In this document: positions 285 to 5,929 of the stretch, piece after piece
Layout: every line of letters starts with the position of its first letter
Numbering within the stretch: position 1 is the stretch's first letter
Notes under the pieces: generated by a model
Database searches by the model: none
What the model saw: only the letters and a program-made list of their open reading frames with translations
Told to the model about the DNA's origin: nothing
Assembly: GCA_027027005.1 (NCBI GenBank)
Contig: JALVMN010000120.1
Coordinates: forward strand, 1-40,902
DNA from: Desulfobacterales bacterium
GTDB taxonomy: Bacteria; Desulfobacterota; DSM-4660; Desulfatiglandales; Desulfatiglandaceae
Direction of reading: 5' to 3'
Length of the DNA stretch: 40,902 nucleotides
Made by a program: the position numbers and the translations under genes

Positions 285-1079
285 ATGGGGGAGGCGATGG
301 TGGATGCACAAGGGCTTAGGGAGTTGGTAAGAGAATTTGTGAGGTCTTATGCTGATCAACCCGGGACAACCGATTGGTGGAGGGATCCCCTGCTGGTCAC
401 AGCACGGATTGACCAGAGATTTGACGCCCTCCCCCGGATTGCATGGGATGAGCACCTAAGGCCCACCGAACTTCTTCCTTCGGCCAAGACCCTGATCGTG
501 TTTTTTGTGCCCTTCAAGAAATCACTTCTGGATGAAAATACTCCAGGCCCTTTTCCGTGCCGAAACTGGGGCCTTGCATACGAGGCCACCAACAAGCTCA
601 TAGGACTGGTGTGTCAGAGGATCAAGGATGTGCTGGCAGTGCAGGGATTCATGTCTGCACTCATGCCTGCCACCCACAACTTTGATGAGAAAAAACTCAT
701 GGCCAGGTGGTCCCACAAACACCTGGCCCATATAAGCGGCTTGGGCCGCATCGGAATAAACACTCAGCTCATCACTCCCGTGGGCTGCGCAGGGAGGTTG
801 GGAAGCCTTGTTACCGAGGCAGACCTTGGTAATTCCCCTCTAGTAGTGGATGGTGAACTCTGCCTCCATAAGCAGGGAAAAGAATGCCTTGAGTGCCTCG
901 GCCGATGCCCGGTGGAGGCCTTGAAAGTGCAAGGTATAGAGCGTCAAAAATGCTGGGCCCGCCTGAAGTTCAATATCCAAAAAACAGAGGAGCTTTCCGG
1001 CCTTGACCGCAATACCCATGTGTGCGGCAAATGCGTGGTTGGCCTGCCCTGCTCTTACTTTGAGGGGCAGGAAAACTAA
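285..1079 (+). CDS. Fe-S protein, epoxyqueuosine reductase (QueG)-like
   Basis: 264-aa ORF with GAGGA 7 nt before the ATG; C-terminal ferredoxin-like cysteines (CLHKQGKECLECLGRCPVEAL ... CGKCVVGLPC) and GLGRIGINTQLITPVGCAGRLGSLVTEADL, typical of QueG-like reductases. Confidence 0.7.
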   Translation: MGEAMVDAQGLRELVREFVRSYADQPGTTDWWRDPLLVTARIDQRFDALPRIAWDEHLRPTELLPSAKTLIVFFVPFKKSLLDENTPGPFPCRNWGLAYEATNKLIGLVCQRIKDVLAVQGFMSALMPATHNFDEKKLMARWSHKHLAHISGLGRIGINTQLITPVGCAGRLGSLVTEADLGNSPLVVDGELCLHKQGKECLECLGRCPVEALKVQGIERQKCWARLKFNIQKTEELSGLDRNTHVCGKCVVGLPCSYFEGQEN

Positions 1080-4000
1080 CCCTTTCCAAGCATCGGAAAA
1101 GGGCTTTCCAAGGGTTTTGCCCCTTGAGAAGGGTAAAGGGGACATGCCCGCTTGATGCATTTCTTGTTGAGCAAGTACTGATTGCAAACCAGGGCCTCAT
1201 CAGCCTTCAGCGTTAACGGCAACAGTCCCTCAGACATCCTGGCTGCTTGTCTCAGAGAGAGGTATGATTCCCTCAAACAGCACCTGGCTGCCTTGAGCCG
1301 GGAGATCTCTTTCAAGATCTCTCCCACCACGCCCATCACCTGCTTACGAGGCCTGGGAGTCAAGGGACTGGCCCCAAGTATGATGGAAAAGGCGATCCCC
1401 ACACCTATTGCCGCACCACAGCTACCCATGAACCCACAGGCCCCACCCGGGATCTCGCTTCCCCTCTTGATACCGGTCTCAACAGCATCCTTGGGCAACT
1501 TCCCCCCAAGGTTTCTATAAGTGGAAAGAATGATCCCTGGCACCATGCCATGGTGTTCAGGGCCATGCAATACTGACACATACTGGGAGCGAATGTTCTT
1601 GAGCAGGGCCAACATGTCTGTTTCAGTGGTAGTGGTGCATATCTCCATTATCTTGGCCAGGGGATCCTTCATGTGGCATGCGTCACAAACGAAATGGCCT
1701 TTCATGCACACAGCATCGGCCATGGCCTTTGAGCCACAGATGGAACACGACTTCATCTCTGAAGAAGTAAAGTATTTTAGTGGCTCTCCGCATATCAAAC
1801 AACCAACCGCATGGGTTTCTTGGCAACCTAAGTCTATATTGGACAAGGCAAGGCCTTCAGGAGGGCCACAGCACGAACACCTGTTGGCCATCTCCACATT
1901 TGTTACCATAGCGGTCTCTTTGTCTATGACCAGCACCCCACTTTCTGCCATCTCTTTTGTGGATGCATCACCAAAGGCCACCTCCACCACCTCCCCCCGT
2001 CTCAAGATCTCGGAGCCGTCCAAGACCAACGCCTGGAATGGACCTGAATATAAAAGCCTTTGTTCTTCCCGGTGGCCAGATGCATGGTCCGGCTTTCTGG
2101 CCAAAAAGGTCAAGGAGTGGAATCCATGCCCTTGCACTTCCCTGTATGGAAATCGCCCAAGGATCTTTGCCCCCATAAAGCCAATTTCACCCAAAAGGGC
2201 AAGAAGGTACTTTTCCACCAGTGCTCCGCCGATGCACTCTCCAATGAGCTGATGATCAGCCCTAATGGAGGCAGGGGGTTCATCTTCTGTAACCACATCC
2301 GATATCACCAGGCGCCCCCCGGGCTTGAGCACCCTGAATATCTCTGAAAACACCCGCCTCTTGTTCTTGCTGAGATTTATGACACAGTTGGACATGACAA
2401 GGTCCACAGCATTGTCGCCTAGGGGAATCTCTTCAAGGTAGCCTTTCAGAAAAAATACATTCCCGTATCCCAATTCCTTGGCCACCTTGCGAGCCGCGCC
2501 GCCCGCAATATCCAGCATCTCCTGGGTCATATCAAGTCCCAGCACAAGGCCCTTTGGTCCCACCATTCGGGAGGCCATAAAACACTCCACCCCGCTTCCT
2601 GAGCCAAGGTCAAGGACTGTTTCGCCCTCTGAGATCCCGGCATCTTGAGCAGGACTACCGCACCCGTACATCCTCAACCTTGCCTCTTCTGGAATAAACT
2701 CAGCCCCTGCACCCAGTTGGACAGGGTTTGCAATCCTGGTGTCTGCCTCCAAGGCCCTACGAGAGTAAAACTCCCTAACCAGGCCCCTGCTATCTCCCTG
2801 GCCCACAGAGAGGAGGCAGTTGCAGTGAGTGAAATTAATTTCTTCACCAGAGGAGCACTCAGTGCTTACATCACCCATCCTCAAAACAAGGCCAGGATGC
2901 TCTGGAACCGGGAGCCCCCTTATTTCTCTCTGGATCAAAAATTCAACCATGGCCTTGTAGACAGGGGTATACGGATCCTGGCCCAATTTCAGCTCAATAT
3001 CTTTACCCGGCACTATCTCAAGGCAATGGTCAATATCTCCCCCGCCGATGATAAATCTCCAGGGGTCATGTCTCATGTGTGGGGACTCCATGAGGCTCAT
3101 GCCACGTATCGCTTCAAAAAGGGCACTCTCCCTCCAAACCCGCTCAAGCCCCTGACCCAGATGGCCACCAATACACTCAGGTCTTTCAACCATTGCAGGG
3201 GTGGGATATATTGCCCCGTCAGGACCAACGGCCAAGGACTCCCAGCACGCATTTCCAAGGTCATACCTGGTCCCTGGAGGAGAAAATACCTGGGAGGCCA
3301 TTGCATCCAAATTATCTATGGAAATCCCTGATTCCTGAGCCACCTCAAATGCAGCTACGAGAGCAGAGATAAGAGCATCTGTCTCTGGCACATCCAGGTT
3401 CTCACCGAGACCCCGTTTGAAGTGCCACTGAAGGTGGAGGTTATGTATCCCAATATTTCTCAAAATAGTTATGAGTTCACTTATGCAAGGAGTGTTTATC
3501 TCGTTTACACTCATGGCAACGCTGCACGATATACCCCTCTCCAGGAGCTCCTCTATTGTCTTCAGGGTCTTTATGTATGTTCCCTTTCCCCTTATCTTGT
3601 CATGAGACTCCTCGGGTCCATCCACGCTCACTTGCAAGTGAACCCTTTCGAGATCCAGCCTGGAAATGCGTGAAAGGTCTTGTGCCTTCAGGAGCCCATT
3701 GGTCAGGACCACGAGCTTTACATCGCTCCAGCCCAAAACAGCCTTCATCAAGCCTACAAAGTCGGGATACACAAATGGTTCCCCCCCCGTGAAACATATC
3801 AGCCCACAGCCTAGATCATAGGCCTGGGACGCTGCTTGAAGGATGGTATCTCTTTCAAGAAATCTTGTGCCGGTGAGGTGTTCCCCGAACATGCAATGGG
3901 TACATCGAAGGTTGCATTTGTCAGTGAGGTGAAACCATATCTCTTGAAGGCGCCCCAGCGGCCTGGTGCTTCGCCCTTCATACGGCCTGTAAGGGGAGAA

Positions 4001-4243
4001 CGTAATGGAGCTCACAAACGTGCTTGCCTCCAAAGACGAAGTAAGGATGTCCTTTGCAGTTAACTTGTTCAAGGAAATGGCCAGATCATCGAGCGAGAGT
4101 TTTCCATTGCAGAGATCGAGTATCTCACTGGCAGAAGGACTGGGAACAAACCAAAAAGGGACCTCTGGAATTATGTAGATGGGGAGCTTTTGCCCTTGAA
4201 CACTAACATACCCCCCTTTTGTTGCACTAAGCTCTTTTTTCAT
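1076..4243 (-). CDS. Multidomain PqqD-like / radical SAM / ArsM-like SAM-methyltransferase / DUF5714-like Cys-rich protein
   Basis: 1055-aa ORF with SD GAGGTGG. CNLRCTHC (CX3CX2C) and GGEP mark radical SAM; ETVLDLGSGSGVECFMASRMVGPKGLVLGLDMTQEML...SNCVINLSKNKRRVFSEIFRVLKPGGRLVISDVV marks an ArsM-type class I methyltransferase; Cys-rich C-terminus CLICGEPL..CSICGS..CMKGHFVCDACH..CGFMGSCGAAIGVGIAFSIILGASPLT resembles DUF5714. Confidence 0.8.
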   Translation of the reverse strand: MKKELSATKGGYVSVQGQKLPIYIIPEVPFWFVPSPSASEILDLCNGKLSLDDLAISLNKLTAKDILTSSLEASTFVSSITFSPYRPYEGRSTRPLGRLQEIWFHLTDKCNLRCTHCMFGEHLTGTRFLERDTILQAASQAYDLGCGLICFTGGEPFVYPDFVGLMKAVLGWSDVKLVVLTNGLLKAQDLSRISRLDLERVHLQVSVDGPEESHDKIRGKGTYIKTLKTIEELLERGISCSVAMSVNEINTPCISELITILRNIGIHNLHLQWHFKRGLGENLDVPETDALISALVAAFEVAQESGISIDNLDAMASQVFSPPGTRYDLGNACWESLAVGPDGAIYPTPAMVERPECIGGHLGQGLERVWRESALFEAIRGMSLMESPHMRHDPWRFIIGGGDIDHCLEIVPGKDIELKLGQDPYTPVYKAMVEFLIQREIRGLPVPEHPGLVLRMGDVSTECSSGEEINFTHCNCLLSVGQGDSRGLVREFYSRRALEADTRIANPVQLGAGAEFIPEEARLRMYGCGSPAQDAGISEGETVLDLGSGSGVECFMASRMVGPKGLVLGLDMTQEMLDIAGGAARKVAKELGYGNVFFLKGYLEEIPLGDNAVDLVMSNCVINLSKNKRRVFSEIFRVLKPGGRLVISDVVTEDEPPASIRADHQLIGECIGGALVEKYLLALLGEIGFMGAKILGRFPYREVQGHGFHSLTFLARKPDHASGHREEQRLLYSGPFQALVLDGSEILRRGEVVEVAFGDASTKEMAESGVLVIDKETAMVTNVEMANRCSCCGPPEGLALSNIDLGCQETHAVGCLICGEPLKYFTSSEMKSCSICGSKAMADAVCMKGHFVCDACHMKDPLAKIMEICTTTTETDMLALLKNIRSQYVSVLHGPEHHGMVPGIILSTYRNLGGKLPKDAVETGIKRGSEIPGGACGFMGSCGAAIGVGIAFSIILGASPLTPRPRKQVMGVVGEILKEISRLKAARCCLRESYLSLRQAARMSEGLLPLTLKADEALVCNQYLLNKKCIKRACPLYPSQGAKPLESPFPMLGKG

Positions 4244-4254
4244 AATTCCACCTC

Positions 4255-4291
4255 AAAAAAAAGAAACGCCAGGGCATTTCGCCCCAGGCCC
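4255..4291 (-). terminator. Intrinsic-terminator-like hairpin in the 5' leader of the 1076..4243 gene
   Basis: Minus-strand sequence GGGCCUGGGGC-GAAAU-GCCCUGGCGUUUC-UUUUUUUU; stem of about 7 bp (two G-U), GAAAU loop, U8 tract at 4255-4262 directly followed by the SD (4248-4254). Confidence 0.55.
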
Positions 4292-4415
4292 ATCTATTTT
4301 AATCAATCCAACCCTTAAACTCTACCAACAAAACCCCATGGGCACAACTGTGGGACGCTCGGTCCCAAGTCGGTGTTGGGCCTCTCTTAATGTAGAGCAA
4401 TATCTCCCTTTGTCA

Positions 4416-4444
4416 TTGACTTGCCTGGCTGAATTCCTTAGAGT
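4416..4444 (+). promoter_or_regulatory. Putative sigma-70 promoter for the AbfD-like gene
   Basis: TTGACT - 17 nt - TAGAGT, about 66 nt upstream of the ATG at 4511. Confidence 0.4.
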
Positions 4445-4510
4445 CCTAGCGTATTGCAATCATAAGTTTTCTCAATTCAACCCAATTAGTATAAATGAGG
4501 AGAGGGAAAA

Positions 4511-5929
4511 ATGATTATCTCGAGAAATGACTACATTGAAAGGCTTTCGGGATACAGGCGCGAAATCTATGTAAAGGGCGAAAAAATTGAAAATTTCGTA
4601 GAGCACCCCAATATCCGCCCTGCCATAAATGCCATTGCCTTTACCTATGACCTTGCTGCCCAAAAGGAGGAGTATTCTCCCTTTTCTGAACTTGTCCATC
4701 AAAAGGTGAACCGCCTCAACTATGTAAATAGAACCCCTGAAGACCTGATTGCAAGGCTGGACTACCAGCGGGAATTGAGCATGAGGACAGGGACCTGCCA
4801 CTATAGATGCCCAGGGGCTGACGCCATATGCTCCCTTTATCCCACCACAAAGGCATTGGACCAGAGGCTCGACACTGACTATCACCAAAAATTCCTGGCA
4901 TTTCTAAAGGAAATCCAGTCTAAGGACTATGCGTGCACAGGCGCACTCACCGACACCAAGGGCGACAGATCCAAGAGGCCGAAAGAGGCAAGGGACATGT
5001 ATGTCCATGTGGTGGAAAAAAGTGATGCGGGCATCGTGGTAAGTGGTGCCAAGATCCACCAAAGCGGGGCATTTGCCGCTGATGTCAATTTTGTGCTCCC
5101 CACCCAAACTTTCAAGCAGGGTGAAGAAGAGTTTGCCATCGCCTTTGCAGTGACACCAGAGGATGAGGGGGTCAAATTCATCCTGCAGAGCACCGGCTAT
5201 CAGGCAAAATTCCGGGAAGGGGGGAGCTTTGAGCCTGGAAACTTCAAATATGGAGACAGGCTCACCTGCACCGTTATATTTGACAATGTCTTCATACCCT
5301 GGGACAGGGTCTTTGTCTTTGAAGACCTGGAGGCAAACAGGCATCTTCTCACCGGCTTTGCCGTCTCGCACCGCTGTGCAGGGGCTGCCTGCAAGGCGGG
5401 CTTCATGGATTCCATGATAGGTGCAGCAAGCCTGATGCTAAAGGCCAATGGCCTTGAAAAGGTGGCGGCCTTGAAACAAAAGATAGGCGAGATGGTGGGG
5501 ATAAGTGAAGCGGCTTACGGAATTGCAATCGGAGCTGCCACCAAGGGATATGAGGACTGGGGGGTGTATCAGCCCAACACATTGATCGCCAATGCCGGAA
5601 AGGTGATCGGCGTGGACGGGCTGAACAAGGTCATAATGAATCTTGCTGAAATTGCAGGGGGCATCCCTGTTACAGCGCCCTCAGAGTTTGACCTCAAAAA
5701 TCCTGAGATAGGCGCATTGGTAGAAAAATACTTGAGCGCCAACCCGGAGTTCACAACAGAGGAGCGGCTCAAGATCATAAAGTTCATAGAGTTCTGGGTT
5801 ACCAGTTCCCACCTGTTGGGCGGGATCCATGGAGGGGGCTCACCTGCTGCCTCCATCATATTCTTGCAGATCCTGGCTGATATCAAGTCCAAGGAAGAGG
5901 CCGTCAAGGAGGCCCTGGGCCTGAAATAG
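4511..5929 (+). CDS. abfD: 4-hydroxybutyryl-CoA dehydratase / vinylacetyl-CoA delta-isomerase family protein
   Basis: 472-aa ORF of the HpaB/AbfD flavoprotein family. Retains the AbfD [4Fe-4S] ligand pattern: CHYRC (C-X3-C) near residues 96/100, and HRCAGAAC (H-X6-C). Confidence 0.8.
   Translation: MIISRNDYIERLSGYRREIYVKGEKIENFVEHPNIRPAINAIAFTYDLAAQKEEYSPFSELVHQKVNRLNYVNRTPEDLIARLDYQRELSMRTGTCHYRCPGADAICSLYPTTKALDQRLDTDYHQKFLAFLKEIQSKDYACTGALTDTKGDRSKRPKEARDMYVHVVEKSDAGIVVSGAKIHQSGAFAADVNFVLPTQTFKQGEEEFAIAFAVTPEDEGVKFILQSTGYQAKFREGGSFEPGNFKYGDRLTCTVIFDNVFIPWDRVFVFEDLEANRHLLTGFAVSHRCAGAACKAGFMDSMIGAASLMLKANGLEKVAALKQKIGEMVGISEAAYGIAIGAATKGYEDWGVYQPNTLIANAGKVIGVDGLNKVIMNLAEIAGGIPVTAPSEFDLKNPEIGALVEKYLSANPEFTTEERLKIIKFIEFWVTSSHLLGGIHGGGSPAASIIFLQILADIKSKEEAVKEALGLK

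Follow-up and report, generated by a model that had tools for sequence, protein, structure and literature searches.

The fusion gene and its domains

The stretch of DNA analyzed here (the window) comprises positions 1 to 40,902 of contig JALVMN010000120.1, from a Desulfobacterales metagenome-assembled genome (MAG; GCA_027027005.1; completeness 97%, contamination 8.9%). Near its start lies a single gene (1076..4243, minus strand) that encodes a PqqD-like domain, a radical S-adenosylmethionine (SAM) core, a degenerate SPASM region, an ArsM-type methyltransferase and a DUF5714 tail in one chain, referred to below as the fusion. A first-pass annotation had described an uninterrupted open reading frame (ORF) of 1055 amino acids with four parts. 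The ORF was found to be real; it runs on the minus strand, which had not been stated, from the ATG start at 4243 to 1076, with a Shine-Dalgarno-like GAGGTGG (4248..4254, minus strand) 4 nt ahead of the ATG. Domain searches showed that the four-part reading was essentially right, although a SPASM-like region separating the radical SAM core from the methyltransferase had been overlooked. An Rfam scan of the window gave no match, and the upstream leader of the gene folded no better than shuffled sequences.

The fusion is a conserved family. When 31 full-length homologues, 39 to 58% identical, were aligned end to end, 131 columns were invariant, which is far beyond chance. Invariant in 31/31 were C110/C114/C117, a GGEP motif, C463/H473/N475/C476, C528/C620/C670 and 14 cysteines of the C-terminal region. 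The first full-length relatives came from a Desulfobacterales MAG (L009, 58% identity), a Desulfobulbaceae MAG (L010, the contig of which begins within the fusion gene) and an Acidobacteria MAG (L011). In-frame stops reported within some homologues raised the possibility of selenocysteine, which was rejected because those in L035 and L036 read out as normal stop codons. An AlphaFold model of the full-length protein, built from an alignment of four sequences, was unusable (predicted local distance difference test [pLDDT] score of 50.7).

The radical SAM core spans residues 104-270 (3434..3934, minus strand). It matched Radical_SAM (PF04055) over residues 106-243 with an E value of 1.2e-21, in agreement with the CX3CX2C core noticed earlier, and C110-x3-C114-x2-C117 (3893..3916, minus strand) are the predicted ligands of the SAM-binding 4Fe-4S cluster. 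Profile matches in the PDB were SkfB, PqqE and MoaA, with SkfB and PqqE as the nearest solved structures. The core is followed by the SPASM-like region at residues 286-512 (2708..3388, minus strand), which has lost the auxiliary-cluster cysteines and ends in the invariant C463-x9-H473-x-N475-C476. Residues 286-510 aligned with the C-terminal part of stand-alone PqqD-radical SAM proteins in hhalign at 98.9% (E value of 1.9e-17) and with the C-terminal part of the arsenosugar enzyme ArsS at 0.5%. Outside the shared radical SAM core, the fusion is thus not ArsS by descent.

A protein of 828 amino acids (P0001; L130:5456-7942, minus strand, genome G102) has the order PqqD-radical SAM-SPASM-ArsM without DUF5714 and retains intact SPASM cysteines. 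Since the fusion has W334, P349, D403 and similar residues at the auxiliary-cluster cysteine positions of P0001, its middle region is a degenerate SPASM domain. P0001 is an evolutionary intermediate. P0001-like proteins without DUF5714 were also observed in Acidobacteriota (L196 and L206-L213).

The ArsM-type methyltransferase occupies residues 514-717 (2093..2704, minus strand) and is followed by a C-terminal extension at residues 718-800 (1844..2092, minus strand) with a largely conserved C-x-C (789, 791) at its end. The SNCVINL signature reported in the first-pass annotation was located at residues 618-624, and the domain matched Methyltransf_31 (PF13847) over residues 538-674 with an E value of 1.3e-29. 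The top NCBIfam match was arsenite methyltransferase NF008823 (E value of 2.4e-66; 224 bits, below the 263-bit cut-off), and the nearest solved structure was the ArsM 5evj (E value of 2.9e-39). In alignments with solved ArsM proteins, C528, C620 and C670, invariant in 31/31, fall in the YGCG/WGCG, SNCVINL and GEC motifs, at the three arsenic-binding cysteines of ArsM. In the phylogeny against ArsM that the annotation had proposed, the fusion clade grouped with ArsM of ArsS genomes, ArsS-fused ArsM and P0001, apart from other ArsM sampled mostly by window-derived patterns (midpoint root; Shimodaira-Hasegawa-like approximate likelihood ratio test [SH-aLRT] value of 99).

The tail, residues 808-1041 (1121..1822, minus strand), consists of a zinc-ribbon-like part and DUF5714. 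The cysteine-rich DUF5714 assignment was confirmed by a match to PF18978 at residues 865-1037 (E value of 1.9e-54; 184 bits against a cut-off of 26.2; model positions 1-173/173). The invariant cysteines are 815, 818, 833, 836, 846, 853, 856, 936, 942, 988, 989, 1020, 1029 and 1034, and histidines are invariant as well. The AlphaFold model of DUF5714 was fair (pLDDT of 76.4), and its comparison with PDB folds gave no match. DUF5714 shows weak similarity to C_GCAxxG_C_C, a putative redox family; a literature search for DUF5714 found no paper. Stand-alone DUF5714 also occurs in a conserved cassette with a cysteine-rich protein of 431 amino acids (L131:3751-6295; L132:5311-7843), with a small methyltransferase and a protein of 445 amino acids nearby and no arsenic gene seen there.

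DUF5714 matches MbdU, a "metal-binding double selenoprotein", and several of the ArsM-like models that matched the methyltransferase are selenoprotein families of unknown substrate. These matches would fit an enzyme that acts on another metalloid or thiol substrate (selenium, antimony, tellurium or mercury) in detoxification or selenometabolite synthesis. However, all three arsenic-binding cysteines of ArsM are invariant and the methyltransferase clade joins ArsM of ArsS genomes, and we regard another substrate as quite unlikely.

The N-terminal 98 residues (3950..4243, minus strand) appear to represent a divergent PqqD-like (RRE-type) domain in which W31 is the sole invariant residue of the family. 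A low-confidence AlphaFold2 (AF2) secondary structure consists of a beta hairpin and three helices. A search with PF05402 gave no match in the window protein and matched 1 of 30 family members, with an E value of 0.19. When the N-terminus was aligned to PqqD sequences from related genomes, hhalign gave 66.8% with a score of 31.2, while 20 column shuffles gave scores of at most 10.6 and probabilities of at most 0.25%. P0001 matched PF05402 with 27.6 bits (cut-off 23.4) and aligned to the family N-terminus at 93%. These profile comparisons support a remote, degenerate PqqD-like domain. The PqqD/RRE region proposed at first is the weakest part of the domain assignment.

The first-pass annotation had also considered a peptide substrate. 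A maturase of ribosomally synthesized and post-translationally modified peptides (RiPPs) would bind a leader through the PqqD-like domain, modify a cysteine-rich peptide through the radical SAM/SPASM-like part and methylate the peptide or bound arsenic through ArsM. The PqqD-like N-terminus and the structural kinship to SkfB and PqqE are consistent with such an enzyme. Nevertheless, conservation across the family is lowest in the PqqD-like domain, the second half of which is shortened or absent in most members; because of this, and because only W31 is invariant, leader-peptide binding is doubtful. The SPASM cluster cysteines are lost, and glycosyltransferases and oxidoreductases are the recurrent neighbors of the homologues. 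None of the recurrent neighbors of at least 90 amino acids was peptide-like, with ORFs of fewer than 90 amino acids not systematically searched. We consider a RiPP-type maturase improbable.

The neighbors of the fusion gene in the window itself are uninformative. A QueG-like 4Fe-4S ferredoxin protein (285-1079, plus strand) is encoded convergently with the fusion gene, and the two stop codons share 4 bases. A gene similar to HpaB/4-hydroxyphenylacetate-3-hydroxylase (4511-5929, plus strand) is divergent from the fusion, with no evident common pathway. A large, ordinary flagellar cluster follows (5944-39619, minus strand; FliW, CsrA, FlgL, FlgK, FlgI, FlhA, FlgE, FliK, FliI and FliF).

Genomic context of the family and exclusion of ArsS

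Among 395 genomes of the window's phylum, the fusion was carried by 34, ArsS by 120 and the glycosyltransferase TIGR04282 by 182. In a sample of 297 Acidobacteriota genomes, 3 contained the full fusion and 9 more contained the radical SAM-ArsM part with DUF5714 not fused. A tblastn search of plasmids gave no match, and no DUF5714 was found on viral contigs. DUF5714 was found as its own gene adjoining the radical SAM-ArsM gene in L119 and L117 and elsewhere in the genome in G546. Since DUF5714 can be a separate gene, the core of the family is radical SAM-ArsM.

The separable DUF5714 (L119, L117) and the wide occurrence of stand-alone ArsM would also fit plain arsenic detoxification, in which function would rest on the ArsM domain alone, the radical SAM part being reductive only or vestigial. 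That the radical SAM cysteines, GGEP and C463/H473/C476 are invariant in 31/31 argues against this possibility, which we consider very remote.

The survey of homologue neighborhoods suggested in the first-pass annotation showed TIGR04282 and TIGR04283, both named "arsenosugar biosynthesis glycosyltransferase" by NCBI, to be recurrent beside the relatives. In L035, TIGR04282 lies directly behind the fusion gene, and in L039, a TIGR04282-TIGR04283 protein lies behind DUF5714, all over the NCBI cut-offs. Of the 28 phylum genomes that had both genes and listed coordinates, 10 had TIGR04282 and the fusion no more than 10 kb apart, with 0.2 expected (p 4e-15). Of the fusion genomes, 29/34 contained TIGR04282 and 3 more contained TIGR04283 over the cut-off, so that 32/34 had either.

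Flavin adenine dinucleotide (FAD)-disulfide oxidoreductases and VTT-domain (TVP38-like) membrane proteins, fused in places, also recurred beside the fusion. The FAD-disulfide oxidoreductase neighbor is common to ArsS loci and fusion loci, and a phosphate-permease-like neighbor is common to ArsS/ArsM loci and radical SAM-ArsM loci. The PiT-type phosphate-permease-like gene was seen beside ArsM, ArsS-ArsM or PqqD-radical SAM-ArsM (L126:5911-7050, L139:1720-2832, L208:3977-5125 and L196:2769-3902), and is perhaps linked to arsenate entry.

A stand-alone PqqD-radical SAM gene was found in L172 (genome G108, 1323-4674) in a compact row of TIGR04282, an AhpD-like gene, PqqD-radical SAM and TIGR04283. 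The AhpD-like protein is a peroxidase homologue close to TIGR04169 (109 of 120 bits), and an AhpD-like gene adjoins ArsS in the ArsS loci L133, L134, L141 and L142. The PqqD-radical SAM gene in L172 occupies the place that ArsS holds in other operons. Similar PqqD-radical SAM genes were observed on a TIGR04282 contig in G210, G183, G400, G236 and G345.

We then compared the distributions of the fusion and ArsS. The two occurred together in 1 of the 395 phylum genomes (G424), on different contigs (L136, L137). Within the genomes containing TIGR04282, ArsS was present in 1/29 fusion genomes versus 113/153 non-fusion genomes (table 1/28/113/40, p 3e-13); when genomes were collapsed to families, ArsS was present in 3/16 families with the fusion (table 3/13/53/8, p 4e-7), relatedness being only partly corrected for at both levels. 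In five genomes of the window's family (G024, G025, G039, G040 and G054), TIGR04282 was present and both ArsS and the fusion were missing; these bacteria may have yet another route, or may use such glycosyltransferases for something else.

A proposed route from As(III) to an adenosylated arsenical

The domains, the conserved catalytic and arsenic-binding residues, the genomic context and the ArsS exclusion suggest that the fusion is probably a second, non-orthologous radical SAM enzyme of the arsenosugar pathway, which replaces ArsS and includes the ArsM partner within its own polypeptide. From these observations we infer the substrate, the order of steps, adenosylation and the role of DUF5714. 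By analogy with known enzymes, the ArsM domain would methylate As(III) on C528/C620/C670 to mono- and dimethylarsenite. The thiolate-held arsenical would then pass to the radical SAM module, with C463/H473/C476 as the likeliest docking ligands. There, cleavage of another SAM molecule by the 4Fe-4S cluster on C110/C114/C117 would generate the 5'-deoxyadenosyl radical, which, again by analogy, would add to trivalent arsenic to yield 5'-deoxy-5'-(dimethylarsino)adenosine. This precursor of arsenosugars and arsenolipids would be finished by TIGR04282/TIGR04283-type glycosyltransferases in most relatives. DUF5714 may serve as an auxiliary thiol/metal module, rich in metal ligands, that binds or stores the arsenical or keeps it reduced.

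The idea of radical chemistry combined with methylation on a thiol-bound metalloid, put forward in the first-pass annotation, agrees with this scheme, but the proposed C-C or C-S bond does not. Since the homologue neighborhoods and the exclusion of ArsS point to arsenic/arsenosugar-type biosynthesis, the expected new bond is C-As, formed by adenosylation, and the substrate, previously left open, is narrowed to arsenic. The window organism's own end product may be simpler, because its genome lacks TIGR04282/TIGR04283 glycosyltransferases.

Several observations weigh against an arsenosugar role. The window genome and G442, a one-contig genome, have neither TIGR04282 nor TIGR04283 over the cut-off. 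The association with TIGR04282 is not one-to-one, as about 33 TIGR04282 genomes (40 in the table above) lack both the fusion and ArsS. We presume that the "arsenosugar" names of TIGR04282 and TIGR04283 are themselves based on association with ArsS. The exclusion between the fusion and ArsS was absent in Acidobacteriota, where both occurred in 2/12 genomes with 1.8 expected; 9 of these 12 members have no fused DUF5714. Outside the radical SAM core the fusion is not homologous to ArsS, and the arsenic scheme assigns no function to the PqqD-like domain.

In arsinothricin biosynthesis, ArsL and ArsM form a radical SAM/methyltransferase pair on As(III) (PMC8552651), and the fusion could carry out such ArsL-like chemistry instead. 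The arsinothricin ArsM model was the second-best NCBIfam match of the methyltransferase, far below its cut-off, and the window genome is without TIGR04282/TIGR04283. On the other hand, the family overall is tied to these glycosyltransferases and excludes ArsS, and no ArsL-type model was among the best 25 NCBIfam matches listed, no dedicated ArsL comparison having been made. We consider ArsL-like chemistry unlikely.

If the fusion does replace ArsS, organoarsenical production is predicted in sediment bacteria where one would not search for it. The papers cited here name no arsenosugar radical SAM enzyme other than ArsS, and many anaerobic bacteria have arsenosugar-associated glycosyltransferases without ArsS; the fusion family would close this gap in a large share of these bacteria. 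DUF5714, so far without a function, would gain a concrete context, and the fusion would provide a one-protein system for studying the channelling of methylarsenite intermediates. On a broader scale, we suggest tentatively, with somewhat less than even confidence, that PqqD-radical SAM, PqqD-radical SAM-ArsM and PqqD-radical SAM-ArsM-DUF5714 proteins form a second lineage in which As-C bond formation is independent of ArsS. A single polypeptide, the longest form, would then convert As(III) all the way to an adenosyl-arsenical, with toxic trivalent intermediates passed between cysteine sites.

Comparison with known systems

Two papers (PMC12159101, PMC8552651), with reference to the primary work, describe ArsM as methylating As(III) and ArsS as putting an adenosyl radical on arsenic, working with ArsM. 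ArsS (TIGR04167), including ArsS-ArsM fusions such as that of L040, shares with the fusion family the CX3CX2C radical SAM core, the pairing or joining with ArsM and the TIGR04282/TIGR04283, AhpD-like and FAD oxidoreductase neighbors. The genomic link of ArsS to ArsM and TIGR04282/TIGR04283 is seen in the fusion family, but not in the window genome. The fusion scored 45 bits against TIGR04167 (cut-off 300 bits), at model positions 7-163 only, which is the radical SAM core. DUF3641 (PF12345), the C-terminal domain of ArsS that is present in ArsS of L040, had no match in the fusion protein, while ArsS lacks the PqqD-like and DUF5714 parts that are extra in the fusion. ArsS-ArsM translational fusions of about 670 amino acids were found at L040:1438-3456 (plus strand), L138:221-2260 and L139:4296-6302, the first of them from the window organism's own genus. 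Since these natural ArsS-ArsM fusions exist, the joining of radical SAM and ArsM activities evolved separately, by convergence.

ArsM/AS3MT and the fusion have in common the fold, the SAM motif and the three arsenic-binding cysteines, while the additional N-terminal cysteine (CC) of ArsM has no counterpart in the fusion, which has N506-P507 there. The ArsM domain of the fusion is joined at both ends and remains below the NF008823 cut-off. ArsL of arsinothricin biosynthesis is likewise a radical SAM partner of ArsM, but the two are separate genes in another context. The PqqD-radical SAM-SPASM enzymes SkfB, PqqE, AlbA and StsB have the same order of PqqD-like, radical SAM and SPASM-like parts; the fusion differs from them in the loss of the SPASM cluster cysteines, in the attached ArsM and in that no precursor peptide was seen (ORFs of fewer than 90 amino acids being unsurveyed). 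DUF5714 elsewhere is stand-alone (L022, L131) or lies within the double selenoprotein MbdU, where a zinc ribbon and DUF5714 show the same cysteine pattern; the fusion has cysteine throughout.

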